Positions 3,823 to 39,862 of a stretch of 40,467 bases of DNA are shown here, piece after piece. Every line of letters begins with the position of its first letter. Within the stretch, counting starts at the first letter, position 1. Under the pieces are notes generated by a model, which saw only the letters and a list, made by a program, of their open reading frames with translations, searched no databases and was not told the origin of the DNA. This DNA is from a virus, in the IMG/VR virus record IMGVR_UViG_3300005466_000051, positions 1 through 40,467 of that record. One strand, written 5' to 3'. The position numbers and the translations under genes were made by a program.

Positions 3823-3834
3823 CCTTTTTTGAGT

Positions 3835-3882: not shown

Positions 3883-3904
3883 TTAAAATGGCTTACAGCG
3901 CGTC

Positions 3905-3933
3905 TTGACATCTACCGAAAACTCTGCTATAAT
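3905..3933 (+). promoter_or_regulatory. Consensus sigma-70-like promoter P1
   Basis: The -35 box TTGACA (3905-3910) and -10 box TATAAT (3928-3933) are both perfect with the optimal 17-base spacer. The predicted start is near 3940, only about five bases before the ATG at 3945, so the GGAGG at 3934-3938 would not be in the transcript and the mRNA would be nearly leaderless. Confidence 0.85.
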
Positions 3934-3944
3934 GGAGGTATACC

Positions 3945-4151
3945 ATGAATCACCAAGACACATTGATTGAGCGTCTGTACTCGGTTCGCTTTAACAGCCC
4001 AGACGGAAACGATATCGATGTAGACGTGTGGGCGCTGGACGGACACACTGCAATTCAGCTTGCCCGCGGTTGGTACCCTGAGCGACGGTCTTGGCGCATC
4101 ACAGCGGCACTTGTAAAGAGTGACACAGAAGGGGGAAGTTGTCAACTATGA
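3945..4151 (+). CDS. Hypothetical protein expressed from P1
   Basis: This 68-residue protein is the first gene after promoter P1. Its start codon lies 11 bases after the -10 box. It shows alternating beta-strands (YSVRFN, DIDVDVWALDG) and a helix, consistent with a small alpha-beta fold, but no family is recognised. It ends in an overlap with the next gene. The strong promoter suggests high early expression and a possible host-takeover role, which is inference. Confidence 0.65.
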   Translation: MNHQDTLIERLYSVRFNSPDGNDIDVDVWALDGHTAIQLARGWYPERRSWRITAALVKSDTEGGSCQL

Positions 4152-4270
4152 CGAACGCGACTGAACATCGCGTCCTATACCTGTGCATCTGGGCGGTTGC
4201 TGTCGTGGTTGTCATCGGCGGATACGCGATGGTCGGCCTGATCCTCTACCGACTCTGGGAGACGTTGTGA
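4148..4270 (+). CDS. 40-residue membrane peptide carrying N-terminal repeat motif
   Basis: The gene encodes a short protein with an N-terminal MTNATEHRV segment followed by one hydrophobic helix (about residues 10-35). The first codons are one copy of the CGCGA-N7-TCGCG repeat (4156-4172). Its ATG overlaps the end of the preceding gene and its stop shares GTGA with the following gene. Function is unknown. The shared N-terminal codons link it to a set of neighbouring small genes. Confidence 0.55.
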   Translation: MTNATEHRVLYLCIWAVAVVVVIGGYAMVGLILYRLWETL

Positions 4271-4710
4271 ACGCGACTCAAGATCGCGTCCCAGACTGTG
4301 AACGGTGGGATCGAGCGGGCGGCTACTGCATCGAGGGCAAGGACTGCACCTGCCACGCGAGTAGCAATCGCGTGCAGCGTGCGGGCATGTGTGGGCCAGA
4401 CTGTCCAGAGGAACCGGATGGGTGCGAGTGGGGCAAGTGCCCCTACTGCGAAGGCGCGGACGCGATCCCCAATCGCGTACCCGACGCTTGCGGCGACGAC
4501 GAATGCGAGGACATGTGTGGCCCGGTCGATGCGAGCGGCAACTACACGCGCTGCCGCGCGACCCGTAATCGCGGGGCCTGGCCGATCATCGAGGACGCCC
4601 TGCGCGAGAAGTGTCCCGAGATGAAGCTGCCCGGCGTGATGGCGTGGTACATCGTCAAGCGTCTGCGCGAGGAAGGGATCATCGAGTGAGCAACGTGACT
4701 CCGCATCGCG
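4156..4710 (+). repeat. Cluster A of 17-bp palindromic repeats (CGCGA-N7-TCGCG)
   Basis: Six copies lie at 4156-4172, 4272-4288, 4356-4372, 4461-4477, 4557-4573 and 4694-4710. The first five match both arms perfectly. The last has CGTGA in the left arm. The 7-base centres differ (CTGAACA, CTCAAGA, GTAGCAA, TCCCCAA, CCCGTAA, CTCCGCA). All copies are in the same codon phase, giving Ala-x-x-x-Arg, and three of them form the first codons of genes. Most of the centres recur in the second cluster near 9.5-10.3 kb. Confidence 0.8.
4267..4689 (+). CDS. Cysteine-rich protein with repeated modules
   Basis: The predicted 140-residue protein starts at a GTG coupled to the upstream gene (GTGA). It is rich in cysteine through about residue 100 (for example CPYC, MCGPDC and DMCGP), consistent with one or more zinc sites. 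Two short internal modules resemble each other, each with an NRV motif followed by a Cys-Gly-rich stretch containing MCGP. Four copies of the palindromic repeat lie inside the gene. The C-terminal 35 residues are helical and cysteine-poor. No family is recognised. Nucleic-acid binding is possible but unproven. Confidence 0.6.
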   Translation: MNATQDRVPDCERWDRAGGYCIEGKDCTCHASSNRVQRAGMCGPDCPEEPDGCEWGKCPYCEGADAIPNRVPDACGDDECEDMCGPVDASGNYTRCRATRNRGAWPIIEDALREKCPEMKLPGVMAWYIVKRLREEGIIE

Positions 4711-4859
4711 TGGCATTCTGCGCCGGTTGCTTTGCCAAGCGTACCGTCAAACTGATCCGAGGATTCAACGGGGCCCGCGACCGGCTCGAGTGTGAGAAGT
4801 GCGGCCGGCGGTGGCCGATTGGGCGCCGTGTGGGCAGCAACATAGGACCGCCGGCATAA
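4686..4859 (+). CDS. Small zinc-ribbon protein
   Basis: A 57-residue protein starts at a GTG (GTGA overlap) with the N-terminal pattern MSNVTPHRV encoded by a palindromic repeat copy. Two CxxC knuckles (CAGC near residue 12 and CEKC near residue 39) form a likely zinc ribbon, with a basic C-terminal tail. It may bind DNA or RNA. Its stop overlaps the next start as TAATG. Confidence 0.6.
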   Translation: MSNVTPHRVAFCAGCFAKRTVKLIRGFNGARDRLECEKCGRRWPIGRRVGSNIGPPA

Positions 4860-5059
4860 TGCGGGGCGTCGATATTTTCTTTGGGATTGTCTGCGCCTGC
4901 TTGATTGTGGGATGTCTGGGTCTTTTGATTCCAGCATGGGTCGCACCATTTTCGGCATATGAATTTCCGATGTGGTGGTTCGAGGCGAGTTTCTTTCATC
5001 TTCTCATCGGCGCGTTCCTGATCGTGCCGGCAATCGATCTCGTTGGGTCGAAGGGTTGA
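4859..5059 (+). CDS. Two-span membrane protein
   Basis: The 66-residue product has two hydrophobic segments (about residues 5-27 and 45-62) separated by an aromatic loop. The ATG at 4859 is chosen because it shares a base with the upstream stop (TAATG). The final codons overlap the -35 element of promoter P2. No family is recognised. Confidence 0.6.
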   Translation: MRGVDIFFGIVCACLIVGCLGLLIPAWVAPFSAYEFPMWWFEASFFHLLIGAFLIVPAIDLVGSKG

Positions 5060-18753: not shown

Positions 18754-21096
18754 CTAGATTCCCGTGAGCGGCCACGGCGCTGCGGTCTGGAAGAACCCGA
18801 AGCTAACATCAAACACAACATCTCCCGGCTCAGGTCGAGGAGCCGCTGTCGCTGACTCGAGCCGTACCGGGATCGAGAGATCACCGACAACAAGCCGGAG
18901 ATCCTGATTCAAGGAAAGATCCTTGAGAGCCAGGAATGTGTCTCGCTCAGCCTTACTGAGAACGTTGCCTGAGATCGTACCTCGATACCCCTGAATTGTA
19001 TCGGTCAGTCGTACCGGTGATCGAGACCCGATAACGTCATACGTTGTACCTGACTCACCGATAGACATATCAGCGCCGTCTACTCCAAAGATCGGAACCA
19101 TCTGTCCGAGCGTTGAAGTTAGAGTATCGTCTGCAAGCCAGACCCCCGTGAAACTGGTCGTGACTGTCGTGGTAGGGTTACCGGTGGAGTGCTTGAATAC
19201 GCCGCCCGAAAGTACGACAGCCTCAACCTCCACAGTCGTTGCTGTGCGAGGAGATACCCCCCAAAGGTAGAATCGATATGTTGTTCCTGAAACAAACGTC
19301 GTGGAAGCCACGATTCGAGAGTTATACTCCACACCGTTTAATTTAACAGACCAATAATCAGGTTGCGCTGACCGAGTAACTGTAACCTGAACAACCGGCG
19401 TATTCCGGGTGCCGTCGTTGTAGGTAATGGTATTGAGAGTTTCAACCGCGGCAACCGTGCCGGCACGCACATAAGTAAACGTTTGCTCTGCCGTCTGGTG
19501 CTCGTTGTTCGCCCTGTTTAGTGTATCCCAAACTTCAACCCGCGCCCGGTAAGTTTTACCGGTCTGAATGATGTTCGCCGGCACAGTCACAGAAGTCGTC
19601 GCGCCAACACCCGAAGTAGACCACAGACCAATTAGCTTGCCGCTGGTCGCCACCTGCATGAGAGTGACACGATAGGATTCCTGAGTCTGACCGGAAAGAG
19701 ACCACGTAATCGGAGGCGTGAGATCCCCCGTCGTTGCTCCCGGGCTTGAGATCGAGAGAGCGCCCAAAGAGGTTCGGGTCATACTCACAGGATCGGACCA
19801 TCCCGAAACAGTGTCAACATCATCCCAAATTCGTACGCGCCAAAACCGGGTGCCGTTTAGTGGAATACCCGTATATCCTGTAGGCAGCGACCAAGGCGAC
19901 ACGTTAGACCCAATCTCAAACTGAGCCGTATCGTTAAACCATGTCACAGCAGATGTACCGCTGGTACGAACCGCTAACTCAACGAAGGCTGTCGTAGCCG
20001 GCGCTGTCGCGGTGAAACTGTAAGTAGTCCATGAAGTAGTGAGGACAATCGCAGAACTTGCAGAAGTAGAGATTGCCGCACCCGCGGCCGTCCGCCAGAA
20101 CATCACGAGTTGGACGGATTCTCCGCCGGCATTGCCCTTCATCGCCATAGAGAAGGTGTATGTGTTACCGGCTGTCGCGATGGCGTCATTAGTGGTTGAT
20201 CCTGCCGCACTACCAAACCCTACACCTTCATTCGCCACAGAGCCAGGAGTTGTTACCTTGAGAGACGCGGCGCCGTGGTTGAAAGTAGTAGTGTCTTTCG
20301 TTTTGGTGCTACCCGCGATAAACACAATACCGGTGGTCGCATCCGTCTCAAAATCCGCTTGGTTCGCAAGTGCCATCAGGTTCAAGTTATTGGCGTAGAG
20401 ATCCCAAATAGCCGCAGATGTGTTCGGCTGTTTGCCACTATCATATTCAGGCGTAGTGAAATCAGTGCTCGTGGAGATCTGGACTTCGCTCGAAGTCAGA
20501 GACCCCCCACCCGGGAAACTCATCGTCCAGGACAACTGCGGTAGGGCAGACGAAACAATATCGCCCGCCGACGGGGAGAGGTTGCCCGGGGGGTCGGGGG
20601 CGAGTGTCCAGTTAACCTCGAATTCTGGGCGCAGTGTAGACACACCGTTGTCGCTCGAGTAGAAAGCTCGATCCTGATGCTGAGACAATTCAACCCGGAA
20701 ACCAAAAAACGGCAGCGCAGAAGCGATATCAACCATCATGTTCGTGATATCGAATTCCACTACCTGACCGTCAGTTCCGCCCGTAACTGTGGCGGCAGCA
20801 GAGTTAGTTGCAGTGACCGTTGGTTTATTGTTCCAGGTCAATTTACCCTCAGCCCAAGTAGACGTAATCCTCTTGAGCGTGAGGTTGTTTGTGCCCGACC
20901 AGGAGCCGTTCAGATACAACCGCAGTTTTGCGGACAGGATACGCGCTCCGATAGGGCACGGTCGGGAATGATAGAGGTACGCAAATCGCTGGTCGCCAGA
21001 GCCGCCGCCGTTAACCCAAATGCGCGGTGTGTCACCGAAGTTCGCGGCAGGGACGTTTTCCTTTACGAAGGAGTCAACACCGATAGGAGCAATCAT
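18754..21096 (-). CDS. Minor tail protein with DNRLRE-like and carbohydrate-binding domains
   Basis: The 780-residue protein starts with a DNRLRE/CBM96-like jelly roll (DSFVKENVPAANFGDT, then a core near residues 40-170). It then has fibronectin-like repeats (about 175-240 and 425-600), a CBM4/9-like domain near 245-400 (FETDATTG, HGAASLKVTTPG) and a C-terminal region that resembles a distal tail protein core. It overlaps the tape measure gene (ATGA). It probably joins the tail tube to the tip and offers extra glycan-binding surfaces. Confidence 0.7.
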   Translation of the reverse strand: MIAPIGVDSFVKENVPAANFGDTPRIWVNGGGSGDQRFAYLYHSRPCPIGARILSAKLRLYLNGSWSGTNNLTLKRITSTWAEGKLTWNNKPTVTATNSAAATVTGGTDGQVVEFDITNMMVDIASALPFFGFRVELSQHQDRAFYSSDNGVSTLRPEFEVNWTLAPDPPGNLSPSAGDIVSSALPQLSWTMSFPGGGSLTSSEVQISTSTDFTTPEYDSGKQPNTSAAIWDLYANNLNLMALANQADFETDATTGIVFIAGSTKTKDTTTFNHGAASLKVTTPGSVANEGVGFGSAAGSTTNDAIATAGNTYTFSMAMKGNAGGESVQLVMFWRTAAGAAISTSASSAIVLTTSWTTYSFTATAPATTAFVELAVRTSGTSAVTWFNDTAQFEIGSNVSPWSLPTGYTGIPLNGTRFWRVRIWDDVDTVSGWSDPVSMTRTSLGALSISSPGATTGDLTPPITWSLSGQTQESYRVTLMQVATSGKLIGLWSTSGVGATTSVTVPANIIQTGKTYRARVEVWDTLNRANNEHQTAEQTFTYVRAGTVAAVETLNTITYNDGTRNTPVVQVTVTRSAQPDYWSVKLNGVEYNSRIVASTTFVSGTTYRFYLWGVSPRTATTVEVEAVVLSGGVFKHSTGNPTTTVTTSFTGVWLADDTLTSTLGQMVPIFGVDGADMSIGESGTTYDVIGSRSPVRLTDTIQGYRGTISGNVLSKAERDTFLALKDLSLNQDLRLVVGDLSIPVRLESATAAPRPEPGDVVFDVSFGFFQTAAPWPLTGI

Positions 21097-25707: not shown

Positions 25708-26054
25708 TAGCCTAGCACCCTTCTGATCTGGAACGTCTTGTGATGGTTGTTGTTCCTGCCCTTGTAGAGCGAAGGCTCACCGATAACCTCGAAGATGTCA
25801 CCCTCCCACTCGACCCGCGACAGACCATCCACGACGGCCCACGGCTCGAGCACAACCCGGAACCGGTCGATCATAGTGTCTCGGTCAATCTCAATCTCTG
25901 CCGAGTCTCGGCCTCGAGTCTCGAGCACCGGCTGCACGTTCGCGCGATACTCCACGCCGGCACTGACATGATCTTGGAGACTACCATAGCGATCTGTGTC
26001 CGGGCCCTGAGTAACCATAAAGACAGTCACCTTATCGCGAAGAGAACGAATCAA
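25707..26054 (-). CDS. Head-closure (stopper) protein
   Basis: The 115-residue protein is beta-rich with the central DRFRVVLEP strand and a C-terminal DIFEVIGEPSLY strand, as in SPP1 gp16-like stoppers. It overlaps the adaptor gene (ATGA). It would seal the portal channel after packaging. Confidence 0.75.
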   Translation of the reverse strand: MIRSLRDKVTVFMVTQGPDTDRYGSLQDHVSAGVEYRANVQPVLETRGRDSAEIEIDRDTMIDRFRVVLEPWAVVDGLSRVEWEGDIFEVIGEPSLYKGRNNNHHKTFQIRRVLG

Positions 26055-26647
26055 GTCGTGATCCTGTAAGAACGCGGGACACCCGACCTGCGGTACTTAA
26101 CGAGTATATCCTTTTCTCGAGGACTCAAACCGAGTGACTCATCGTGAGAGTATACCAGTCTTGTGTTACCAATCGTTTCCGCCTTAGCCAACCCCTGGTC
26201 ATAGATACGGGCGGCAAGCGTTAGAGCGACGATTCTAATATCGGTAGGGATAACGTCCCACCCGTGAGTGTACGTCACCTGGACAGCGGCTCGCCGGTCA
26301 GGGAACAGGGCGCCTCTGAACACGATCAAGCCCTTGTCGTAATCGATCATATACCTAGCAGGATCGTACGTGTAGAGAGTGAAATCAGTCGTAGTCGTGA
26401 ATGAACTTACATCGCTGACACTCACAACCGGAGCCTCAGGTAGCATTACCGTGTCGGTACCGTCAGTATCGATGGCGATAACATCATCGGTTACACGATT
26501 GATGGTCTGATGCAGGAACCCACGAATCGTGTAGCAAGCCGAGTCGAGGGCGATAGTAGAGAGATCGTCAGTCTCGCCTACTCCCAACGCCGGCAAGCGA
26601 AGATATGCGTATAGATCATCGATACTGATAAAAGGATCGTAAGCCAC
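26051..26647 (-). CDS. Head-tail adaptor (gp6/gp15-like)
   Basis: The 198-residue protein has an N-terminal helical bundle opening with ISIDDLYAYLRLP, a strand insert, and the C-terminal YTHGWDVIPTDIRIVALTLAARIY segment typical of connector adaptors. It would bind the portal ring. The gene follows the large repeat protein without overlap. Confidence 0.8.
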   Translation of the reverse strand: MAYDPFISIDDLYAYLRLPALGVGETDDLSTIALDSACYTIRGFLHQTINRVTDDVIAIDTDGTDTVMLPEAPVVSVSDVSSFTTTTDFTLYTYDPARYMIDYDKGLIVFRGALFPDRRAAVQVTYTHGWDVIPTDIRIVALTLAARIYDQGLAKAETIGNTRLVYSHDESLGLSPREKDILVKYRRSGVPRSYRITT

Positions 26648-29023
26648 TTACCATCTTTCGTTTGAGTCGGGAGGCCACTGTAGGGCAGGGATCTTGTTCC
26701 ACTGTGGGTTTGTCCTTGGGCCCCACTTAATGTTAGTGTCAGGAGGCCATTGATTACCGGAGTGTGACGGCCACTGGATCATCACAACGCGGATGTTCGG
26801 GACAGGCGCGAATGCGGTTGCCGTAGCCTTGGGCGGGACAACCCCAATCCCGGGAACCTTTGCCGACGCGCTCGCCGTAGCGACAGGCGGCATGACAATC
26901 TGATCGATAACCCCGCTGATTGTCGGGATAGGTGCCGAAGCATTCGCGACGGCTGCCGGCGGTAGAACCCGCACTTGAATCGTCGGGACAGGCGCGGATG
27001 CATTCGCGGTAGCGGCCGGAGGCGTGAGCCTGTCTTGCGGTGTCGGGAGCGCGGCAGACGCAGTAGCCGTAGCGGCTGCAGGCGACACACGGAGTTGCAG
27101 TGTCGGGACAAGCCCTGATACACTTGCCGTTGCCGCAGCCGGCGACACCTTAACATCAACAACCGGCGTAGGAGCACTAGCATTCGCTGTGGCAACCGGT
27201 GGACTAACAACAGCCGCAACCGTAATAGTCGGGACAAAAGCACTGGCCGACGCCGTTGCTGCGGCCGGGGAAACTCGTAACTGTATAGTCGGAACCGGGG
27301 AACTTACCGAAGCGGTAGCGGCCGGCGGCGAGATTATCTGACTACCGATAACGGTCGGGACTAGAGCAGACGCACTAGCTGTAGCCGCTGCCGGCGACAC
27401 CCGAAGCTGAACCGCGGGAAGCGGGGAGCTTGCCGAGGCGGTAGCGGCCGGGACAACAACCTTAACGTCAATCCCTGGAATGCCAGAGAACGTAGTTGCG
27501 TCGTCGTTATAGAAATACGGATCTCGAACTAAACGCTGGAACGCGGCAAGTTTGAGCGGAGAACTAGCCGGGTAATAGAGCGACGACGGAACACCGCCGC
27601 TGCCCACCGTGAAACCAATCCACTTAAGCCTCGAGCCAGTGATCGGAAGACCCTTGATGTACGTCCCGAAAGCGTCAAGGAAGTCCGCGATCTCCTGACT
27701 GACCGTACTGTTCAGTCCGTCGTCGCCAGCACCAAACTCTGGGAAAAGGAAATCCTTACCGCGAGCATTAGCAAGCGTCAGGAAGTCCGCGAAAATCGTG
27801 GAAGCGTTCGTCCCGTACTTGATGTGACCGCTGACGACGTTCTGGTAAAAGTCAGTCGCAAACTCTTCGTAATAACTCGTGCCGGCCGGGGCGGGGCTGG
27901 TGCCCTTGTCGGGATCGAAGTCGTCTACGGTGAGCCCGGGAGTTGTGGGCGACACCCACATATCCGGGAGAACACAATAAACAAACGTGACCTTACCGCC
28001 AAGATACTGACCAGTCTTAGATCGTACTGTTGCTCCGGCGGCGTCAAACTTATCCCGAACATGACGGTAGGCGTCAATGTACGCCTGCTGCGTGTTCGTC
28101 GGGACGGCAAGGTAACCCTTCTGATTTGAGTTGGCTACCGTCTGCTCGTGATGGAACGAGAACCGCATCGGATTCGTGGGGTTACACCACGTCTCCGTCA
28201 GGATGTCCGTAATCAGCGCATCAATTTCCGTGTCCCAAAGACCGGCCGCTACTTCGTCCCACGGCATGGCCTGCTTAACGCCACCGCCGTCTACATACTG
28301 AGCGTTAGCATTACGGTAGTTCTTAAGATACCCAAGACCAACATCGGTATCGAACCCACTTGCAGAGTTATCGAGATTGAGGTTCTTACGTACGCCGTCA
28401 AAGCGCCGGCCGATATCACGTTCAATCGAAGGAGCATCCGGGAATACTTCCTGAGGCGAATACCCGACCCAGGTAACAGAGCCAGTGACCTTGATCGGCA
28501 TTGTCGGAGCAATGCTCGAGGCAGAAGCCGAAGCCGTAGGAGCCTTGATCGGAAGAGCGGGTGCGGGAGAACTTGCCGTGGCCGTAGCCGCAGGCACAGA
28601 AATCCCGATCTGTACTGTGGGCGTAGGCGCTGACGCCGTGCTCGTTGCAACACCCGGGAAGAGGCGAATTGCCGGTGTAGCGTGACCCGCAGGCTGACTG
28701 CTCGCTGAGGCGGTAGCAGTCGGCACCACAATTGCCGGCACAAGCGGGGGCGGGCCGTTAGCAGAGGCCGTCGCCAGCGGCACAATAATGCCAAGCTGCG
28801 GGACAGGCGTAGGTGCAGAAGCAGAAGCAGTAGCCGCCGCAGGCGGAACTTGGACCTGTGGAACAGGTAGAGGGCCCGACGCAGAAGCAGTCGCCGCGGG
28901 AGCGGGAATCGAAAGCTGCGGAACCGGTACTAGAGAACTAGCTGAGGCTGTAGCAACAGGAGGCGAAACCGTTTGGTTCGCCGTTGTAACGGTCGGTGGC
29001 CGACGATTGATGAAGAATGCCAA
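26648..29023 (-). CDS. GH26-like glycosidase flanked by 19 ATASAS-type repeats
   Basis: The 791-residue protein has about eight imperfect repeats of 18-23 residues (core ATASAS with PP and PVPQ elements) at residues 24-181. A globular domain follows at about 182-512. Eleven more repeats lie at 527-748, and the last 43 residues carry five QWP/KWG/QWN-type Trp motifs. The central domain resembles GH26 endo-mannanases, with a FSFHHEQ acid/base motif and an LFPEFGAG nucleophile motif. The start is a TTG directly after the upstream TAG. The gene lies in the head module, before the connectors, so it may be a capsid-attached fibre rather than a tail fibre. Confidence 0.7.
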   Translation of the reverse strand: MAFFINRRPPTVTTANQTVSPPVATASASSLVPVPQLSIPAPAATASASGPLPVPQVQVPPAAATASASAPTPVPQLGIIVPLATASANGPPPLVPAIVVPTATASASSQPAGHATPAIRLFPGVATSTASAPTPTVQIGISVPAATATASSPAPALPIKAPTASASASSIAPTMPIKVTGSVTWVGYSPQEVFPDAPSIERDIGRRFDGVRKNLNLDNSASGFDTDVGLGYLKNYRNANAQYVDGGGVKQAMPWDEVAAGLWDTEIDALITDILTETWCNPTNPMRFSFHHEQTVANSNQKGYLAVPTNTQQAYIDAYRHVRDKFDAAGATVRSKTGQYLGGKVTFVYCVLPDMWVSPTTPGLTVDDFDPDKGTSPAPAGTSYYEEFATDFYQNVVSGHIKYGTNASTIFADFLTLANARGKDFLFPEFGAGDDGLNSTVSQEIADFLDAFGTYIKGLPITGSRLKWIGFTVGSGGVPSSLYYPASSPLKLAAFQRLVRDPYFYNDDATTFSGIPGIDVKVVVPAATASASSPLPAVQLRVSPAAATASASALVPTVIGSQIISPPAATASVSSPVPTIQLRVSPAAATASASAFVPTITVAAVVSPPVATANASAPTPVVDVKVSPAAATASVSGLVPTLQLRVSPAAATATASAALPTPQDRLTPPAATANASAPVPTIQVRVLPPAAVANASAPIPTISGVIDQIVMPPVATASASAKVPGIGVVPPKATATAFAPVPNIRVVMIQWPSHSGNQWPPDTNIKWGPRTNPQWNKIPALQWPPDSNERW

Positions 29024-29164
29024 CTAGCGCCATCCCTGCACCGGCATTTGTACCACAGGTCGATGAATAGTCGCCCTTATACTACGTTGGGCGTCGATAA
29101 CAGTAACCTTTGGAGTCACCGGAGGTTGCTGTTCAACAGTAGTTTCAACGATTGCACCAGGCAT
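29024..29164 (-). CDS. 46-residue hypothetical protein
   Basis: A short frame starts in a TAATG overlap with the upstream gene, and its TAG stop directly abuts the TTG start of the repeat protein. The peptide is Pro/Val-rich and has no recognised family. It could be a small anchor or linker for the adjacent virion protein. Confidence 0.5.
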   Translation of the reverse strand: MPGAIVETTVEQQPPVTPKVTVIDAQRSIRATIHRPVVQMPVQGWR

Positions 29165-30072
29165 TATGCGACCCAAATCTCATAGACGAATCCACCCCAA
29201 GCATTTGAGGCAGTCGTATCATTGGGCCCACCGTAGTTGATGTTCCCTGACGCCGCTACGATATCAACTGAATACGCAGCATCCCAGGTCAGCGATGACC
29301 CGGCGGTGAGACCACCGATCACGCACTGACTTTCAAAGACGTACCGCGTCGTCGCGACGCCACCGCCGAGATCGACGAGCCCGCCAATCGGCGTTGTTCG
29401 ACCCCTGACGGTCGTACTTTCTAAGATACCGAACTGGAGTGCTGGTAGGACGGTTGATCCGTCTACCTGACCCTTGATGCGCACGTTCACGCGACCCGAA
29501 GGCGGCACCGTGAACGTGGATCGTAGGTTCGTAGTGTCAAGTGCAGTCATCGCGATCAACGTGCCAACCGACTTGGCTACCGCCGTCGAAGGGTCATAGT
29601 TCTTCGCGGCGAGGATATTTGTCGTCTCCCAAACCTCGAACTGGAATGCGCCGAAGCTGTCGTTCGTGGTCGCGTTATTAGGGCCACCATACTTGAGATC
29701 AGACGAAGCGACAGTAAACTCAACGCCATACGCCGCATCCCACGTCAAGGAGGCGCCGGGCGTCAACCCCGTTACGCAAAACGCCGCCTCGACAACCTGA
29801 TGCGCGGTTGCAATACCGGTCGCTGACCGTCCACCAATCGGCGTGCCTCTGCCGCGAACAGTTGACCCCTCGAGCACCCCAAGCAAAATCATAGAACATG
29901 ATGTAGCGCCATGAAGAACACCACGAAGACGAACAAACACAATCCCGTTGGACGGGACAGTGAATGTAACCCGAAGGTTCGTCGTGTCGAGCGCCGTCAT
30001 AGCCAGTGCAGCAGCACAAGACTTAGTGACAGCTACGGATGGATCGTAATTCGCAACAGCAAGACAGGCCAC
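29164..30072 (-). CDS. Virion protein made of two tandem copies of one domain
   Basis: The 302-residue protein consists of two related halves of about 150 residues. Each half has a NYDPS-x-AV-x-KS opening, MTALDTTNLR, a TVRGR-x-TPIGG motif, SLTWDAAY and a final YGGPN segment before an FEVWE or YEIWV ending. The all-beta composition suggests a jelly-roll-like decoration or fibre protein. The second copy is clearly a duplication. It starts at a GTG. Function is inferred only from position. Confidence 0.65.
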   Translation of the reverse strand: MACLAVANYDPSVAVTKSCAAALAMTALDTTNLRVTFTVPSNGIVFVRLRGVLHGATSCSMILLGVLEGSTVRGRGTPIGGRSATGIATAHQVVEAAFCVTGLTPGASLTWDAAYGVEFTVASSDLKYGGPNNATTNDSFGAFQFEVWETTNILAAKNYDPSTAVAKSVGTLIAMTALDTTNLRSTFTVPPSGRVNVRIKGQVDGSTVLPALQFGILESTTVRGRTTPIGGLVDLGGGVATTRYVFESQCVIGGLTAGSSLTWDAAYSVDIVAASGNINYGGPNDTTASNAWGGFVYEIWVA

Positions 30073-30074
30073 GG

Positions 30075-30551
30075 TCAGGCGCCTATCGTTACTCGCATGT
30101 ATGCAAAAACGTTCACGTTCGCTGTGACATTCACGCGGAGAGCAAGCGCCTTAACCGTACCACCACTGAGATCAGTCTCCGGCTCAGTGCCGGGCATATA
30201 GGTGCGAGCGTACACACCGTTAAATTGCGGTACGAATATCGGCTCGATGACAGTGAGCGCAGTCGGTTCTGCAGTGTAGTTATGAGCGGCAGTAAACTGC
30301 GCCGCGATCGTTCGGCCGGTGACCTGCACAATAGCCGGCGGTGAACCGCCCGCAGTCCCGGCAGTTGCCTGCGTAGACTGACAGAGTTGAACAGTAGCTG
30401 GGATCGCAGATGCAGAAACACCATCCAAACTGATGCCCCACTCAACAATCTGGACGGGCTGATTCGCGCCTGCGATAACGTTCAGAACAGTCTTTGCGCC
30501 GGTTGTTGCGGCGAAAACCGTGTTCTGACAGACATAAATAGCGTCGGCCAT
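30075..30551 (-). CDS. Putative virion decoration protein
   Basis: The 158-residue protein is rich in Ala, Val and Thr with alternating strands, similar in style to the neighbouring duplicated protein (PVQIVEWGISLDG). It lies in the series of structural genes between the glycosylation island and the head-tail connectors. No family is recognised with certainty. Confidence 0.6.
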   Translation of the reverse strand: MADAIYVCQNTVFAATTGAKTVLNVIAGANQPVQIVEWGISLDGVSASAIPATVQLCQSTQATAGTAGGSPPAIVQVTGRTIAAQFTAAHNYTAEPTALTVIEPIFVPQFNGVYARTYMPGTEPETDLSGGTVKALALRVNVTANVNVFAYMRVTIGA

Positions 30552-30552
30552 T

Positions 30553-30999
30553 TTATGCCACCACTACAGAAATGATCCCCGATGCGTTCCAAGCAATCGT
30601 CAGCGTAGCGCCGGCCGCAGCGGTAACCGTGCCGCCGAACAAGACGTACGAAATCAGCGGCTTGTTCGAGGCTGGCGTTGAATCGTAGACGACAGCACTT
30701 GTTGCGGAAATACCCGCACCAGATGCAGTCCATACGGCATTGCTCGCGGTCCATGAAGTCGTCTGACCGTTCGTAACGGTCGGTGAAGTGAGCGTGACGC
30801 CGCCTGCGGTGTAACCGTTGGCGGTAGAAAGCTCAGTCCACGCCGTCGTGAACGGGGTAGCATCGAAGTATTTGTGTGTTGCCGCGTACGTATACGCGGT
30901 GTTCGACAGACCACACTTAATAGTGTCCGTGTCGATATCAGCTTCCTTGTTCCACGTAGTCGTGAAGAACATGGGGTAAACAAAGGCTGTAACTGCCAC
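30553..30999 (-). CDS. Putative virion structural protein
   Basis: The 148-residue protein matches a common siphovirus structural pattern: an N-terminal DTIKCGLSNTAYTY segment, NGYTAGGVTL, AVWTASGAGI, AVVYDSTPAS, and a C-terminal Gly/Ala strand region. Proteins of this kind are often found near capsid or fibre genes. The start is a GTG with an AGAGAGG site upstream. Confidence 0.65.
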   Translation of the reverse strand: MAVTAFVYPMFFTTTWNKEADIDTDTIKCGLSNTAYTYAATHKYFDATPFTTAWTELSTANGYTAGGVTLTSPTVTNGQTTSWTASNAVWTASGAGISATSAVVYDSTPASNKPLISYVLFGGTVTAAAGATLTIAWNASGIISVVVA

Positions 31000-31218: not shown

Positions 31219-31333
31219 CGCCCTGAACAAGAGTGTTCACTGAACATCTCGAGCAAACGCACTTAGGCGAGTGCCCGCTCGTAAAGGGCGGACGTATGCC
31301 GGCGTTAGTCCCGCCCTGAACAAGAATGTTCAC
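31219..31333 (-). repeat. Pair of 22-bp direct repeats with nested hairpins
   Basis: Two direct copies (31219-31240 and 31312-31333) differ at one base. Each contains a TGAAC/GTTCA inverted repeat. A further stem GTTCAGG/CCTGAAC (31210-31228) overlaps the first copy, and GGGCGG/CCGCCC (31286-31316) fills the spacer. The second copy covers the epimerase stop codon. The pair may act as a terminator, an RNA structure, or the scar of an insertion. Confidence 0.65.
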
Positions 31334-32283
31334 GAGCGCCGGCCGAGATCTGCGTCAGGGTGAAACTCGGAAGCAAACTGTGGGGCCACCCGTCGGTCAA
31401 CCGCGGCGCCGTTAAGTGAGGGCTGGCCGGCGCGAAGCCACTCGAGCACACGACTCATGCCCTTTTCCAGCTCGATCTCTGGGCGCCATCCAAGGTTGCG
31501 CAACTTAACAGTCGTCAGACGCTTAACTACAGTCTGGCGGTCGGGCGGATCAGTCTCGTGAATTAGGTCGTGAGAAGCTCCAGTCAAGTCGCACGCAATC
31601 TCGGCAACACGCCTCATTGAGACTGCATTGTCGTCTCGACCAATGTTCCAATCGCCGGCCGCACGTCCTTCAAGCACGTAGCGCATACCCCGTACTGTGT
31701 CTCCGACCCAGCACCAAGCGCGCTCACTACCGCGATGAACATAAATCGGTTCTCCTCTGTCAGCTTGATCGAGGAAACAGACAATAGCCGCTCGGCCAAA
31801 GCCAGGAGGCAGGCCGGGTCCGTATGGCATGGACAGGCGGAAGTTGATGAGTCCGGCGGGGGCATAGAGCTGTAGAATCTCCTCGCCCCACCGTTTCGTG
31901 AGGCCGTAGGCATTATGTGGGAGCTTCATTCGACAGCCCTCCCACGCGGGCGACTGACCAAGATCACCGTATACCTCAGAAGTTGAGGCATAGGCAACCG
32001 GAACGCCCGCATCGCCACAAGCCTTCGCGACAAGCGCAGTGATGCCGGCGTTGTCCTGCACAGTAAACATCACATTATCTTCCCCGAACAGACGGCCCAC
32101 CTTTGCCGCCAGATGAACCACATAATCGGGATTGTACTTCTCGAGCGCGTGCTCGATAGTGCTCGGTGTTCGTAGATCCCCAAACTCGCGGTCGATACCG
32201 TTAACGTTATGGCCGTTCTGCCTAAGCTCGTTGCTCAGGTGTGTGCCGATGAAACCATCAGCCCCGGTTACGAGAAACTGCAC
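31330..32283 (-). CDS. NAD-dependent sugar epimerase/dehydratase (extended SDR)
   Basis: The 317-residue enzyme has the Rossmann motif TGADGFIG (residues 6-13), an HLAAKVG segment, and the catalytic YGLTK (Tyr126, Lys130) with an upstream STSEVYG. It would modify a nucleotide sugar for the adjacent glycosyltransferases. The HLAAKVG segment recalls GDP-fucose synthase-type enzymes, but the substrate is not certain. The GTG at 32283 is chosen because a GGAGG site lies just upstream and the Rossmann fold begins at once. A start at 32364 would add unrelated residues inside the previous gene. Confidence 0.85.
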   Translation of the reverse strand: MQFLVTGADGFIGTHLSNELRQNGHNVNGIDREFGDLRTPSTIEHALEKYNPDYVVHLAAKVGRLFGEDNVMFTVQDNAGITALVAKACGDAGVPVAYASTSEVYGDLGQSPAWEGCRMKLPHNAYGLTKRWGEEILQLYAPAGLINFRLSMPYGPGLPPGFGRAAIVCFLDQADRGEPIYVHRGSERAWCWVGDTVRGMRYVLEGRAAGDWNIGRDDNAVSMRRVAEIACDLTGASHDLIHETDPPDRQTVVKRLTTVKLRNLGWRPEIELEKGMSRVLEWLRAGQPSLNGAAVDRRVAPQFASEFHPDADLGRRS

Positions 32284-33247
32284 GTAATCCTCCGATGTCG
32301 TCTGCGTCCGGGTGGAGCAGAGTTTCAGGTAGAGCGGCCAGAGCGCACCGCGAGAAATGAGCAAGCATACCGTTCGGTTCGTAGATCCCCCCGCACGTAC
32401 AGCGAGGTTCGATAGGCTTGTGTAGCGGCTCGGGAACCATCATGTGTGAGAATTTTTCGGGGTGCTCGCGGACGTACATCGGCATATCCTCGAGCCCGAC
32501 CCACTCGGACGGGCGATACTCACGGGCGAAAACATCCCGGCCGGTCATGATAGATTCCATGATCCAGTCGTCCGTGAGAATGTCGGCAACCGTGAGCCCT
32601 CGAGCCAGGGCACCCTTGTCGATCAGGTCGATAGCTTTGTCCATCATGCCGGTAATCTTCGACCGAATCTTCTCGACGCCACCCTGGTAAGTCAGGTGAT
32701 GGCCGGAGAGAGCGCCCCGGGAGGGTACGGACGAATCCCACAAGATCGCCCCGCACACCCCTAGCTCAAGGATCTTCTGTCCGAGCACGACGCCGCCGAG
32801 CGTTCCCGCGCGGCACCCTCGATCCAGCCATCGCCAGTTTAGTGTGTAAACATGGAGATCCATCGGGAAGCGCATCGGCGGATTGTTGAGCGCATCCGAT
32901 AGAGCATACTGCGTCGGGATCTCGTCAAGGTCGGATACATATACGAGATCGAGAGGTTTGATGTCGTACATCCCGCGGATGAGAGCGTCGCGTTGCCAGC
33001 GTTCGCGAGCCACGTCATCTGCGTGCCGGGTACCGGCGGGCATGTCATCGACCACAACATATCTGATTTTGTCGGCCCACGGAGCAAATCGTTCCTGATG
33101 CTTTGGGAATTCCAGCTCTTTGGGCCGGCCGCGTTGATCGACTGTTGCTTCCGCCAGTACGACCACATCCACCATATCACCGATAGTGCCGAGACGAATC
33201 TCAAGGACATCAACCTCATTTTTAAATTGTGATGCGGTATAAATCAA
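32258..33247 (-). CDS. GT17-type glycosyltransferase
   Basis: The 329-residue protein matches the GT17 family (N-acetylglucosaminyltransferase-like). It has an opening strand with NEVDVLEIRL, then DMVDVVVLAEATVDQRGRP, a KIRYVVVDDMP segment, and a DXD-containing YVSDLDEIP. The TTG start at 33247 shares TTGA with the upstream small gene and begins exactly at the family's first strand. A C-terminal Cys pair (CTCGG) may bind metal. It probably transfers a sugar to a virion or host glycan. Confidence 0.8.
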   Translation of the reverse strand: MIYTASQFKNEVDVLEIRLGTIGDMVDVVVLAEATVDQRGRPKELEFPKHQERFAPWADKIRYVVVDDMPAGTRHADDVARERWQRDALIRGMYDIKPLDLVYVSDLDEIPTQYALSDALNNPPMRFPMDLHVYTLNWRWLDRGCRAGTLGGVVLGQKILELGVCGAILWDSSVPSRGALSGHHLTYQGGVEKIRSKITGMMDKAIDLIDKGALARGLTVADILTDDWIMESIMTGRDVFAREYRPSEWVGLEDMPMYVREHPEKFSHMMVPEPLHKPIEPRCTCGGIYEPNGMLAHFSRCALAALPETLLHPDADDIGGLRAVSRNRG

Positions 33248-33351
33248 CCGCGCCCCTGTCTCTGAATCCACCAGTAGAAGAACATTGCAGTAACACGATT
33301 GCGGCGGCGATATTCGACCTTTTCTTTGATCTCCGACCACGGCTTACTCAT
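33244..33351 (-). CDS. 35-residue basic/aromatic peptide
   Basis: A short frame lies exactly between an ATGA overlap with the upstream gene and a TTGA overlap with the GT17 start. The peptide has a basic helix and an aromatic membrane-like patch (MFFYWWIQ). Precise coupling at both ends supports translation. Function is unknown. Confidence 0.5.
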   Translation of the reverse strand: MSKPWSEIKEKVEYRRRNRVTAMFFYWWIQRQGRG

Positions 33352-33518
33352 GACCAACCTCTACATGCTTTACTAGTGTCTTCGTCATACTCAACGAGAC
33401 CCGATACCCATTCGAGCCCGATCTCAGACTCAATCCGTTTAAGTTCTCTCCAGGCATCTCCTAGTGAATCATACCGCTGCACGAGATTTGCGTTGTCAGA
33501 AAACAAAAGATATCTCAT
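33348..33518 (-). CDS. Small hypothetical protein in the glycosylation island
   Basis: Fifty-six residues start at an ATG in an ATGA overlap with the upstream glycosyltransferase and end in another ATGA overlap. The sequence is helical in the middle (DAWRELKRIESEIGLEW). No family is recognised. Confidence 0.55.
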   Translation of the reverse strand: MRYLLFSDNANLVQRYDSLGDAWRELKRIESEIGLEWVSGLVEYDEDTSKACRGWS

Positions 33519-34114
33519 GCTACGGGGCGCCTTCGGTTGCGATCTGCCAACCACCTATAGTAGTGAGGCACATAACCCTCCGCAGCCATTGCTTCCTCGA
33601 GAGCGGTCAAGTCCCGGGCCCGCCGTTCGGGGCGCCGGCCTTCGGGCGCGATGTAGTGATGGACAACATAGGTCGGACAGAATTGAATCGGGAGACCTAA
33701 CCGCCAGGCCCGATATGTAATCCAGTCGTCTGATCCGTCGTGGATCGGTAGGAACCACCCGCCGATCTTGAGCATTGCTCGAGTCAAAAATGGGATCATC
33801 ACTTTCAGGCCCATCGGAGTCTCACACACAAAACGCCGGCCATCCTCGTAAACGTTCGCTACAGGGACAATGCCCTTGTTGAGCATTTCAATCGGAGCCT
33901 GCCACCAGTCATACGCCGGAATGATATCGTCCGCGGTGAAGTGCAGATAGTCGCCAGTTGCCTGCTCTGCGCCTTGCTCCCACCCCTCAGCGCAAGACGG
34001 AGCATCTTTGACGACGATCACTTCGGCATCAGGGGCCGTTAACTTATACCCCTTGAGACACTTCGCTAGCCACTCCTCGCGACCAGTGATAGTAGGAACG
34101 ATAATCGAGATCAT
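33515..34114 (-). CDS. GT2-like glycosyltransferase, paralogue 2
   Basis: The 199-residue enzyme is GT-A fold: SIIVPTITGRE opening, AEVIVVKD, a DXD-type FTADD motif near residue 80, and an HDGSDDW motif. It is clearly related to the enzyme at 34213-34938, which shares PTITGRE, LHFTADDI and GSDDW. It lacks the other's longer C-terminal helix. Duplication followed by divergence would give two different acceptors or linkages. Confidence 0.8.
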   Translation of the reverse strand: MISIIVPTITGREEWLAKCLKGYKLTAPDAEVIVVKDAPSCAEGWEQGAEQATGDYLHFTADDIIPAYDWWQAPIEMLNKGIVPVANVYEDGRRFVCETPMGLKVMIPFLTRAMLKIGGWFLPIHDGSDDWITYRAWRLGLPIQFCPTYVVHHYIAPEGRRPERRARDLTALEEAMAAEGYVPHYYRWLADRNRRRPVA

Positions 34115-34209
34115 GTAATCTGACGCCTACGAATACGATCAGCCCACATATGCAAGAGAAGACCGACAGTATTTCCAATAACCCCAACAGAAAGTAAAAT
34201 AGTAATCAT
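34111..34209 (-). CDS. 32-residue membrane peptide between paralogous glycosyltransferases
   Basis: A hydrophobic helix (about residues 2-22) is followed by a basic tail (DRIRRRQIT). The stop overlaps the next start (ATGA). The position between two related glycosyltransferases suggests a membrane anchor or recruitment role, which is only inference. Confidence 0.5.
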   Translation of the reverse strand: MITILLSVGVIGNTVGLLLHMWADRIRRRQIT

Positions 34210-34212
34210 GTA

Positions 34213-34938
34213 CTATTGTAGGGCGTTCCAACCGGCGCCTTCTGCTTGCTGCCGCAACTGCTTTGCAACCATACGGTCTAGATCGCGAATCCGTACATTA
34301 TCAAGACCGGTAACACTCGTCCGCAGTCGCTCCTCGAGCGCACTGTAGACGGGTGGCACATAGCCGGCCTGCCCCATTGCCTCTACGAGCTTGAAGATGT
34401 CGCCGTGCCGGCGGGTATAGTCCCGGCCCTGATCGGCAACCCAATGTGTGAAGCTGTAGCTCGGTGCTGTGTGGAGAGGGATCTTGCGTTGTGTGGCAAC
34501 GTAGGAAACCCAATCGTCCGAGCCGTAGTGGATCGGTAGAAGCCATCCGCCCTGATCGAGCATCTTGCGGCTCAGGAACGGGACGAGTACATTCTTGACC
34601 AAGCCCATGTCTCCGAGCGGAGAGTCACACATCAGAGGCATGCCGTTAGAAGCGAACACGTTTGCAATCGGGACACCACCCATGTCCGCGGCCTTAACAG
34701 CGTCCGGCCACCAGTTTTGGTTGGGGGTAATGTCGTCGGCCGTGAAGTGGAGGTACAGACCGCGAGCCTGCTCGGCGCCCTTGATCCAGGCATGTCCGCA
34801 GCTCGGCTCGTTTTCGATGACAATAAGTTCTGCGCCCGGAGCAGTTGTTTCGTACCCCTCGACGCACATCTTGAGGTAATCCTCGCGACCCGTGATTGTG
34901 GGAATAATGACCGAAATCATCGGTCGGGCCTGCGCCAT
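34213..34938 (-). CDS. GT2-like glycosyltransferase, paralogue 1
   Basis: The 241-residue GT-A enzyme has SVIIPTITGRED, AELIVIENEP, a DXD-type FTADD, an HYGSDDW motif and a Tyr/Arg-rich C-terminal helix. The ATG at 34938 shares a base with the upstream stop (TGATG). A GTG three bases earlier and an internal ATG at 34920 are alternatives. It likely uses a UDP- or GDP-sugar to modify a phage or host target. Confidence 0.8.
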   Translation of the reverse strand: MAQARPMISVIIPTITGREDYLKMCVEGYETTAPGAELIVIENEPSCGHAWIKGAEQARGLYLHFTADDITPNQNWWPDAVKAADMGGVPIANVFASNGMPLMCDSPLGDMGLVKNVLVPFLSRKMLDQGGWLLPIHYGSDDWVSYVATQRKIPLHTAPSYSFTHWVADQGRDYTRRHGDIFKLVEAMGQAGYVPPVYSALEERLRTSVTGLDNVRIRDLDRMVAKQLRQQAEGAGWNALQ

Positions 34939-35657
34939 CACGGCCGGATACCGTAAAACGTCTTCATGCGAGCAGTAAACTTCTCGCCGTGTAGTTCTGC
35001 AATCTCATCCCACATGACCGGCACTTCTCCTCGCTTCTCGAGTCCTGCGACCCATAGGTGACGCTTCCACGGTGTGATCTGGAAGCCTGATTCAAATTGG
35101 ATAGTCTCAAGGGGGTCAACCTCGAGCCACAAAGTGCCGGCGTCTGGGTTGGCTTTGAGAACGCCCTCGTGCGTACTCGTGTCGCACATCTTCATAATAT
35201 TCTCTTCGCACGGTCGAGGATTACGTGCGAGTAGTTCTGTTGGGTAAGCCTTCATCGCCCAGATAGGATTCCGATACTGAATCGCTTTGATGCCCGTACC
35301 GTGTACGGCCGTCATCCAACGAGTTTGTATCAGTACATCCGTCGGACTCTGATCTATTGCTTGTAGGAGCCTAGGGTCAAAGGCCTGATCTGAATTAACG
35401 TGGAATGAGAAGTCGAATCCATGCTCAACTGCCCACTGATGCCCGTCGTTATATTTTGCGCCGAGAATGTTGGGGGATTCGATTCCCACGAATCCAAGCG
35501 TTCGGGCAAGCTCAACATTTTCGAAGTCACCGACGCATACACATTGTGCTTCCACTCCAAGACTAGCCGCCTCCTCGAACGTCTGAGCGCGATGCTCGAG
35601 CATGATTCGTGTCAGCTCGAACCGCCTGAATACCGGCGTGACTAAAAGTACGGACAC
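34938..35657 (-). CDS. GT-A-type glycosyltransferase
   Basis: The 239-residue protein has a GT-A-like start (SVLLVTPVFRR), a QCVCVGDFEN strand, and an FHVNSDQAF segment where Asn-Ser-Asp sits at the DXD position. It is more divergent than the two downstream paralogues. The GTG start follows the small membrane gene after three bases. It belongs to the same operon and probably the same glycan pathway. Confidence 0.68.
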   Translation of the reverse strand: MSVLLVTPVFRRFELTRIMLEHRAQTFEEAASLGVEAQCVCVGDFENVELARTLGFVGIESPNILGAKYNDGHQWAVEHGFDFSFHVNSDQAFDPRLLQAIDQSPTDVLIQTRWMTAVHGTGIKAIQYRNPIWAMKAYPTELLARNPRPCEENIMKMCDTSTHEGVLKANPDAGTLWLEVDPLETIQFESGFQITPWKRHLWVAGLEKRGEVPVMWDEIAELHGEKFTARMKTFYGIRP

Positions 35658-35660
35658 AGG

Positions 35661-35774
35661 CTAGAAGTATTTTCGTAGTTCCCTGCGGAGCTTGTAGTAC
35701 GCGACTACCTCGCGGCCGACGGACACAAAGTACCGCGGGGGCAGGAGCAACAGAAATCCAATGAGCCTAAGCAC
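35661..35774 (-). CDS. 37-residue membrane peptide
   Basis: A GTG-started frame overlaps the HNH stop by eight bases. It encodes a hydrophobic helix (LIGFLLLLPP) and a basic helical tail (KLRRELRKYF). The adjacent glycosyltransferase begins three bases after its stop. It may anchor the enzyme at the membrane. Function is unproven. Confidence 0.4.
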   Translation of the reverse strand: MLRLIGFLLLLPPRYFVSVGREVVAYYKLRRELRKYF

Positions 35775-36210
35775 TGGCAAGTTTATGCTCCTCGTGTAGT
35801 TCTGCGTGACAATTAGCGCACAGAAGATCGCATTTTTCTGCTTCAATACGTGCCCGCTCCAGACTAGTGCGAGCAACTAATGTTCCAACATCAAACTCTT
35901 TTTCACTTGAATCTCGATGATGGAAATGTAGTGCCGCTAGACATCGATCATACCCACACCGAACACACGCCCCGCCGTGCTCGAGTTTCAGTGTCTTACG
36001 ATTTTGCGCTATACGAGCAGACTGACGACCAAGAATAGTAGTTTGGTTTCGAAGATAATAGGCTCTATCTTCATCAGCATTTTTAACCTTGCATGTCCAA
36101 GTACCGAGACCGGCACACTGGAGATTCTTTTTCCAGTACATCAATTCACCGTGACACTCACACCTAGGACGAGAATCACCAACTTCTGCATATTTTTCTG
36201 CGGCTGTCAT
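35767..36210 (-). CDS. HNH endonuclease inserted after the capsid gene
   Basis: The 147-residue protein has an N-terminal CxC/Cys zinc region (residues 17-39), a DNA-contacting helix (NRKTLKLEHGG), a CVRCG knuckle, and the HNH core HFHHRDSS followed by LLCANCHAELHEE. The order matches group I homing-type HNH proteins. It sits alone between the capsid gene and the glycosylation island, uses an AGGAG site, and is more AT-rich than its neighbours, all suggesting mobility. No intron boundary is apparent in the adjacent capsid gene. Confidence 0.88.
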   Translation of the reverse strand: MTAAEKYAEVGDSRPRCECHGELMYWKKNLQCAGLGTWTCKVKNADEDRAYYLRNQTTILGRQSARIAQNRKTLKLEHGGACVRCGYDRCLAALHFHHRDSSEKEFDVGTLVARTSLERARIEAEKCDLLCANCHAELHEEHKLASA

Positions 36211-36235
36211 TTATCTCCTCTAGATAACGGTCGGA

Positions 36236-36269
36236 GTTGGGGAGCTGGCCGTTATTCCAGCTCCCCAAC
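36236..36269 (-). terminator. Strong hairpin after the major capsid gene
   Basis: A perfect 13-bp stem with arms GTTGGGGAGCTGG and CCAGCTCCCCAAC encloses an 8-base loop. No U-tract follows, so it may stabilise capsid mRNA or act as a processing stop rather than a classic terminator. Confidence 0.6.
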
Positions 36270-36323
36270 ACCCTAGCTAGTTGAGCTTATCAAAACGCTG
36301 CAACTAAACGTGAACCAGTAGGA

Positions 36324-37577
36324 TCACGTAGCCGCGCCGACACCACCAAGGTCTGCGACAGCAAAGGCCGCAGGCCGGTAGACAGCAAGCGCAAGACGCT
36401 CCTCCGCGCGGATGGCCACTTTATTTTCCTGGAAGAAAGTGGAATGCGAATTCGACGCCTCCACGCGCAGACCGCCCTTACGATAGACCTGCGAAGCGGT
36501 GCTGAACGCACCGACAATCGGCTTGGCCTCGGCAACAGCCGTGGTGACCACGACGCGCATACCCCACAGGTTCGGGCCGGCCTCAGAAGAGAACGGACCA
36601 GTACCCATGTAGTTAGCAGTCGTGTTCTTGAGGGTAACAATACCCTCCCAATCGTTCGGGTGGATGATGATACCGTCCGGCTCGAGGAATGCCTCACGCA
36701 CCCTCGAAATAGCCCGGAAGATATGATCTGCGTCAGTGGCGCTAGCAGCGTTCGAACGAAGGCCCTTATTGTTGGCCGGAATACGGCTAACAAGACCAAC
36801 GAGATCGTTCGTGCCGGCACCGTTCAGGAGCGAGTTCTCTTCCTGAATCTTGACGAACAGAGTCAGACGCGCATTGATGTACGACTGGATACCAGCGACA
36901 TCCTCGAGCATCTCCTCAGTGACCGGCAGGAAGGTAGCGATCTTCTTGACCGGCTCACTCGTCATATCGAAGACCAGAGTAGACTCCGGCTTGCTCACAC
37001 CTTCCGCGACGGCCGCAGCAGCGTTCGTCACCGAAGACTCGATCATGTAGTTGATCGTGTTAGTGTCAGTGGTACCCGACGCCATAAGATCGGCTACAGT
37101 GAGCCTCTGAAAGAGCACCGGGAGAATACCCGGCTCGTACTGCGGGACAACGAGCTTACCGCCCGAACCAGTAGCCTCAGACAGAAGGGTCTTAACCTCC
37201 ATGTCAATGGCACCGGTCGTCCAGTTACCGTCGAAGCCGCGATCACGCAGCGCCTTGTAGCCGTCCGACTTAACGAACGCCTCACCCGGCGAAGAAGCGC
37301 GCGGCGGCGCATCAGGGGCACGGCGAGCATCTTCGTCAATCTCGATGGTCTCACCGATGTTCTTCACGCGGTTGCGAGTCTCGATAGAAGCCTGAACCTC
37401 GCGCCGCGTCTCCTTGAGGACTTCAACCTGATCGAGAAGGCCCTTGACCTTCTTATCCTCGTCCTCAGTCATACCACGAGCCTCAGCGTGCGCCGCCTCT
37501 GTAACAGCCTTGGCGTTGCCGAGAATCTCGCGCATCTCGCGGTCAACCGCCGCGAGCTGTCGTTCGTACTTATCCAT
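36324..37577 (-). CDS. HK97-fold major capsid protein
   Basis: The 417-residue protein has an N-terminal coiled-coil delta domain (residues 1-70), an acidic linker that the prohead protease would remove, and the HK97 core. Core elements include LVVPQYEPGILPVLFQRL, a VSKPES E-loop region, KIATFLPVTEEMLEDV and a C-terminal HSTFFQENKVAIRAEERLALAVYRP P-domain strand. It directly follows the protease and would assemble the icosahedral shell. Flanking hairpins and a tRNA-like element suggest special mRNA handling. Confidence 0.95.
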   Translation of the reverse strand: MDKYERQLAAVDREMREILGNAKAVTEAAHAEARGMTEDEDKKVKGLLDQVEVLKETRREVQASIETRNRVKNIGETIEIDEDARRAPDAPPRASSPGEAFVKSDGYKALRDRGFDGNWTTGAIDMEVKTLLSEATGSGGKLVVPQYEPGILPVLFQRLTVADLMASGTTDTNTINYMIESSVTNAAAAVAEGVSKPESTLVFDMTSEPVKKIATFLPVTEEMLEDVAGIQSYINARLTLFVKIQEENSLLNGAGTNDLVGLVSRIPANNKGLRSNAASATDADHIFRAISRVREAFLEPDGIIIHPNDWEGIVTLKNTTANYMGTGPFSSEAGPNLWGMRVVVTTAVAEAKPIVGAFSTASQVYRKGGLRVEASNSHSTFFQENKVAIRAEERLALAVYRPAAFAVADLGGVGAAT

Positions 37578-39094: not shown

Positions 39095-39862
39095 TCAGGC
39101 CGTAGCCCTTACAATCGTTCGGAAGTCGTCCGAAAGATCAGGATTCATCAAGTACGCCCACGGCATCAAGAAGTAGCCAGACAGGCCCCACCCTGTGCCC
39201 CAGGAATTTCGGCAGAGAACATGATTCGGCATGTCGCGAAGATAACCGATTGCTAGTACCTCATGCCCGCCGTAGTACGTCTCATTAGCGGCCGGCATAG
39301 GCACGATGCCCGTGCTAGCCGCGCGGTAAGACTCGAACGATTCGTACACTTCAAACCCGAACGCCATCGTCTGGTGATTCGAGAGCACGGCCTTGATCTG
39401 GTCAATGTCTCGAGGGACAACAGCGTACGGCTTGGTCAACTTGCGCCGCTTCTTGTCCTCAGGTGGCGGGCCGGCAAAATCATTGACATCATACGGCCAT
39501 GCTCGCTCGAGCAGGTAACCAGTCTGCGCCGCAAACTTGAAGCCGTCCCGGCCGTAGGCCCCCGTGTCTTCGTCGGCAGGCGCCCCCTCGAGCATACGCT
39601 CACCGTAGTAGATGTCTAACCGCGACGGGCGCCGCGCGTGCTCAGGAGCTAGATCCAGTGAACGGTCAAACTGGAGCGCCGCGCCTACCGCGTTTGCAGT
39701 ACACGACCCCAGAGAGCCCTGATCGTAGATCCCGGGCATATTCGAGCCTCGCCGTGGGTCAACCTCATCCTTGATGAACAAGCCCGAGGGGTTAGCCACC
39801 TTATCGCGCTTGTCTTCGGGGGATCGTTTCCACCCACCGTAATGATGCTTGAGCTTAGTCAT
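39095..39862 (-). CDS. Papain-like (C1) cysteine protease
   Basis: The 255-residue protein carries the full papain triad and oxyanion residue: Gln48 and Cys54 in DQGSLGSCTANA, His200 in YYGGHEVLAIGY, and Asn219 in NSWGTGWG. An N-terminal polybasic segment lacks a signal peptide. It is encoded between the MuF-like gene and the prohead protease. C1 proteases are rare in phage head modules. It may process virion proteins or be injected or packaged. Its substrate is unknown. Confidence 0.9.
   Translation of the reverse strand: MTKLKHHYGGWKRSPEDKRDKVANPSGLFIKDEVDPRRGSNMPGIYDQGSLGSCTANAVGAALQFDRSLDLAPEHARRPSRLDIYYGERMLEGAPADEDTGAYGRDGFKFAAQTGYLLERAWPYDVNDFAGPPPEDKKRRKLTKPYAVVPRDIDQIKAVLSNHQTMAFGFEVYESFESYRAASTGIVPMPAANETYYGGHEVLAIGYLRDMPNHVLCRNSWGTGWGLSGYFLMPWAYLMNPDLSDDFRTIVRATA

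Follow-up and report, generated by a model that had tools for sequence, protein, structure and literature searches.

A GH26-like domain between two repeat stalks in a soil phage protein, probably a virion fibre with a carbohydrate-active head

The virus record IMGVR_UViG_3300005466_000051, from a soil phage, was analysed over 40,467 bases (the window). It encodes a protein in which a GH26-like domain is set between two stalks of short repeats, and this protein is probably a fibre of the virion whose carbohydrate-active head is exchangeable. We give slightly better than an even chance to a fuller version, a virion fibre with a beta-rich, two-part stalk and an active GH26 head, most likely attached at the head or neck of the particle. 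We infer that the protein is part of the virion, where it attaches, that it is an active enzyme, and which substrate it cuts. The virion-fibre reading rests on the recurrent pairing of such stalk proteins with phrog_644 genes and on the records in which this module lies behind the capsid gene.

The open reading frame named in the earlier note was recovered on the minus strand (Table 1). It begins with a TTG start codon immediately after a stop codon, and AGGGA lies just upstream. All of the residues of the protein were identical in two further contigs, whose identity to the window, in the stretches compared, was 99.5-99.9%; one of them carried three silent changes within the stalk gene. A search for a homologue of the Trp-rich C-terminal tail found none. 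Two mycobacteriophage stalk proteins (L107, positions 3841-4983, and L111, positions 3603-4730) start with a repeated GW..NP.P motif, which loosely resembles this tail; the role may possibly be that of an anchor.

Table 1. Positions in the window of the stalk gene, its parts and the genes around it.
Feature	Position	Strand	Evidence
Repeat-stalk / GH26-like / repeat-stalk protein, 791 aa	26648..29023	-	ORF translation, unit HMM
N-terminal stalk, 8 repeats of ~20 aa, residues 18-177	28493..28972	-	unit HMM
GH26-like domain, predicted catalytic, residues 182-512	27488..28480	-	HMM, HHalign, negative shuffles
E293, predicted acid/base, motif FSFHHE	28145..28147	-	alignment
E429, predicted nucleophile, motif LFPEFG	27737..27739	-	alignment
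C-terminal stalk, 11 repeats, residues 521-746	26786..27463	-	unit HMM
C-terminal tail, six Trp (QWPP/KWGP/QWNK motifs)	26651..26785	-	sequence
Head-tail adaptor, directly downstream of the stalk gene	26051..26647	-	phrog_442, E 3.8e-30
302-aa protein, two tandem copies of a ~150-residue domain	29164..30072	-	sequence
158-aa protein, between p148 and the 302-aa gene on the side of the stalk gene	30075..30551	-	ORF
p148, phrog_644 protein	30553..30999	-	phrog_644, E 1.4e-22
Major capsid protein	36324..37577	-	PF05065, E 4e-43

The repeat unit has 20 residues and the consensus [RK]VSPPAATASASAPVPTIQV. An HMM built from the units found 19 copies, eight before and eleven after a domain of approximately 330 residues, the same numbers as in the earlier note. 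The core repeat motif occurred 19 times, compared to 0.04 times on average and at most 2 in 2000 shuffles, and the autocorrelation of each stalk was highest at 20 residues (z = 8.2 and 10.6); the central domain had no 20-residue peak (z = 1.4). Tandem Repeats Finder reported nothing on the DNA. In pairwise comparisons of the units, nucleotide identity averaged 50% with a maximum of 68%, while residue identity reached 80%. The repeats exist in the protein and not in the DNA. The earlier note had also expected the repeat number to vary through recombination. This expectation is unsupported, because the units are so dissimilar as DNA, no tandem repeat was reported, and the window and the two other contigs have the same unit number, a count that is a weak test since the three contigs are near-identical. 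A single-sequence AF2 model of the C-terminal stalk placed two short beta strands in each repeat, with low confidence (mean pLDDT 55), which suggests that the stalk might be a beta-rich rod. With this model Foldseek returned nothing at E <= 0.001; a 583-aa protein of Sixama reached a TM of 0.55 but was not counted, as its E value was 0.56.

The central domain had no match in Pfam, PHROGs, NCBIfam or PDB sequence searches, and PF02156, the Pfam family for GH26, had no match in the domain at E <= 10 when searched directly. Searching phages and plasmids by tblastn gave nothing, and scans of viral contigs for GH26 relatives returned only the two near-identical contigs, or none. One search match (L144) was set aside as likely chance. 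Among 396 genomes of one phylum there was a bacterial protein (L145) whose C-terminal domain is similar and which also carries TIG domains. As a single sequence it matched Endoglucanase H (GH26) with an E value of 1.8e-13. The bacterial intermediate family, used as a profile, matched solved GH26 enzymes in the PDB with an E value of 1e-71, together with many GH26 mannanases and xylanases. Among 6127 ORFs, the window domain was the only match (E 1e-13) of an HMM built from this family without the window sequence, and 500 shuffles and the reversed sequence gave E values of 6 or worse. HHalign aligned residues 15-323 of the domain with the family (probability 98.9, E 3.3e-17). A single-sequence AF2 model of the domain alone reached a pLDDT of 36, too low to be relied on for the fold, and was not used for fold search.

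E293 and E429 align, via L146, with positions 109 and 222 of the Endoglucanase H chain, which we take to be the published catalytic residues. Also conserved are the His preceding the acid/base residue and, in the DxY motif, the Asp and the Tyr. Identity to the bacterial relatives was 18-25% in a wide alignment and 28-29% to the closest two. The profile matches through bacterial intermediates and the conservation of both catalytic Glu residues make the domain GH26-like, as the earlier note had proposed, and by sequence it is classed here as a divergent GH26 domain that is probably catalytically active. An inactive, lectin-like sugar-binding head would fit the high divergence, the change of the DGYN motif of GH26 relatives to DFYQ and the LamG domains on a sister stalk protein, but the retention of both catalytic Glu residues, the preceding His and the DxY residues argues for an enzyme and leaves a lectin-like head improbable. 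Mannan, the kind of substrate suggested earlier, does not follow from the homology, because the closest relative of known structure is a lichenase, and xylanases and glucanases also belong to GH26.

The position of the gene between capsid-associated and connector genes, also noted earlier, was confirmed by the capsid gene upstream and the adaptor gene downstream. The gene order is capsid, glycosyltransferases and an epimerase, three small genes, the stalk gene, the head-tail adaptor, Hc1 and neck genes, with two genes on the same strand between p148 and the stalk gene. Database searches with the 302-aa two-copy protein found no relative, and homology of the 158-aa neighbour to its counterpart in L042 was rejected as unsupported (E 0.10). 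Between the capsid and phrog_644 genes, positions 31330-35657 hold the glycosyltransferase cluster (including a GT17-like member) and the NAD-dependent epimerase; a glycosyltransferase also lies close to the stalk gene of L042. An HNH-type gene lies at 35767-36210, and contig L010 had no alignment over window positions 35781-36311, as if this gene were absent or different there. In the capsid gene region L010 differed from the window by approximately 48 changes, mostly silent, and its stalk gene was nearly identical; from these alignments, divergence between the capsid region and the stalk gene appears mosaic. Within the head module, a peptidase-like gene (39095-39862) is flanked by the protease gene and the portal-end genes.

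Relatives of p148 were found in phages of Gordonia, Rhodococcus, Mycobacterium and Tsukamurella, in other phages, and in many viral and bacterial contigs. The gene after phrog_644 encoded a repeat-stalk protein (periodicity of 15-30 residues, mostly 20-24) in 47 of 148 cases, compared to 37 of 860 other genes (Fisher p ~1e-20; the records are partly related, so this p value is too small, and the contrast is large). A phrog_644 gene near a gene for a 20-24-aa repeat protein on the same strand is the arrangement of the window, and elsewhere the two are often adjacent. The window repeat unit is homologous to that of the L042 stalk (BLASTP E 5e-13, composition-adjusted), and the unit HMM found 12 copies in L098 and seven in L042. 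The sister stalk proteins carried glycine-rich domains (6 of 59), a Peptidase_S74 chaperone, beta-helix, LamG, CBM96, polysaccharide lyase and other domains, a set that, judged from sequence, is of fibre type. The phrog_644 gene and the stalk gene appear to form a widespread, recurrent phage module in which the carbohydrate-handling head is swapped. Two adjacent phrog_644 paralogues lie behind the capsid gene of L098 (positions 4144-5040).

Most of the named phages carry the pair behind the tape measure gene or next to lysis genes (Sixama, Orchid, GMA1, ReT1v-2, TPA4, GodonK, NoShow, Onyinye and others), with neighbours or members annotated as minor tail protein. These relatives favour a fibre of the tail or baseplate that bears a GH26 head and is assembled at the tail from a gene that merely lies among head genes. 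At least five other records have the module behind the capsid gene (L042, L043, L080, L098 and MiniFlayer), and it precedes neck or tail genes where these are seen. The order is capsid, phrog_644, three genes and a stalk protein with the repeat of the window in L042, the closest record in repeat sequence, whose short stalk has no enzyme; capsid, phrog_644, a 906-aa repeat protein and head-tail adaptors in L080; protease, capsid, two phrog_644 genes, a protein of 1376 aa in which repeats enclose a polysaccharide lyase (PF14099, E 2e-26), and Neck1 in L098; and capsid, gp6, gp7, gp8 (LamG domains), tail fibre and head-tail adaptor in MiniFlayer. L040 likewise has its phrog_644 gene immediately after the capsid gene. 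The L098 and MiniFlayer proteins both have 1376 aa, and a common sequence was ruled out, as the sequences differ.

The earlier suggestion of a fibre-type protein is consistent with the finding that, in several unrelated records, stalk and domain recur in the interval from capsid to neck genes. Since most relatives carry the pair in tail or lysis regions, a position among head genes is no proof of attachment to the head; the same arrangement behind the capsid gene in the five records makes head or neck attachment plausible, and for the window protein attachment to the capsid, read from gene order, is plausible. A tail location is further opposed by the separate tail genes of the window phage (tape measure, a CBM96-bearing protein and a 1052-aa protein), and we regard it as an unlikely but serious alternative. 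The tail-region protein at 18754-21096 carries CBM96 (PF24517) at its N terminus and is similar to the stalk protein of L080 as well.

For the fibre fixed to the head or neck, we propose that the 20-residue beta-rich repeats would form a two-part stalk holding an active GH26-type glycosidase away from the particle. This head would cut surface or environmental polysaccharide, so that the phage could approach or leave its host. The phrog_644 protein encoded upstream would be the probable base or assembly partner of the fibre, and gene order and the unrelated records suggest fixation to the head or neck and not to the tail tip.

Phage depolymerases are known mainly as tail spikes. A modular class of head/neck fibres, with a phrog_644 base, a repeat stalk and an inserted domain, either an enzyme from one of several unrelated families (GH26, polysaccharide lyase) or a carbohydrate-binding domain (LamG, CBM96), such that the capsid itself bears a depolymerase, is a tentative proposal to which we give somewhat less than an even chance. 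If true, phages would have a further means of clearing or holding surface polysaccharide, an enzyme set midway in a stalk on the head or neck. Pairs of phrog_644 and stalk genes would be a handle for finding such fibres among unannotated proteins, and the function of phrog_644 becomes testable through its pairing with the stalk.

Among known systems, the nearest solved member is the GH26 domain of Endoglucanase H from Clostridium thermocellum (PDB 2V3G/2BV9), with which both catalytic Glu residues and overall domain length align. Unlike the GH26 enzymes, the window domain is below PF02156 detection, is set between repeat stalks and is encoded by a phage. The endoglucanase and mannanase of the mangrove-soil phage GX15bay are likewise phage-encoded GH26-type domains near glycosyltransferases, but they lack 20-aa repeat stalks, and in the available part of the annotation their genes are not between capsid and neck genes. 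Studies of mangrove and tundra soils report viral GH26 genes among the auxiliary carbohydrate genes (PMC6460857, PMC10127799), which would agree with an auxiliary metabolic glycosidase outside the virion, produced during infection or secreted for the nutrition of the host. However, the two long repeat stalks, which the GX15bay proteins do not share, the site between virion genes and the partnership with phrog_644 speak against such a role, and we consider it very improbable.

The virion fibre that we prefer has its relatives in the actinophage stalk proteins of Gordonia phages (Sixama gp105, Orchid gp38, GMA1 gp28), of Rhodococcus phage ReT1v-2 (290) and of mycobacteriophages (Onyinye gp43, NoShow gp22). 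They share Ala/Pro-rich repeats of 20-24 residues and a phrog_644 gene as neighbour, but are encoded in tail or lysis regions, with end domains that are Gly-rich or of no known kind, and none matches the GH26 profile. Capsid fibres of the flagellotropic phages 7-7-1 and phiCbK are a precedent for host contact (PMC12796354); the part of this source available to us mentions no glycosidase on them, unlike the window protein. As in the window, MiniFlayer gp6-gp9 include a homologue of phrog_644 and a long repeat protein, encoded between the capsid and head-tail adaptor genes, but they differ in the LamG domains and the repeat sequence, and MiniFlayer is a satellite that attaches to the neck of its helper. 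Its virion has short fibres visible by microscopy, and the tail fibre and adjacent hypothetical genes were proposed by the authors as an adsorption module (PMC10690885). The closest in plan is L098 (soil contig IMGVR_UViG_3300005437_000036), with capsid, phrog_644, repeats, a polysaccharide-cleaving domain, repeats and neck genes in the same order; it differs in its longer N-terminal part and in carrying the polysaccharide lyase in place of GH26.
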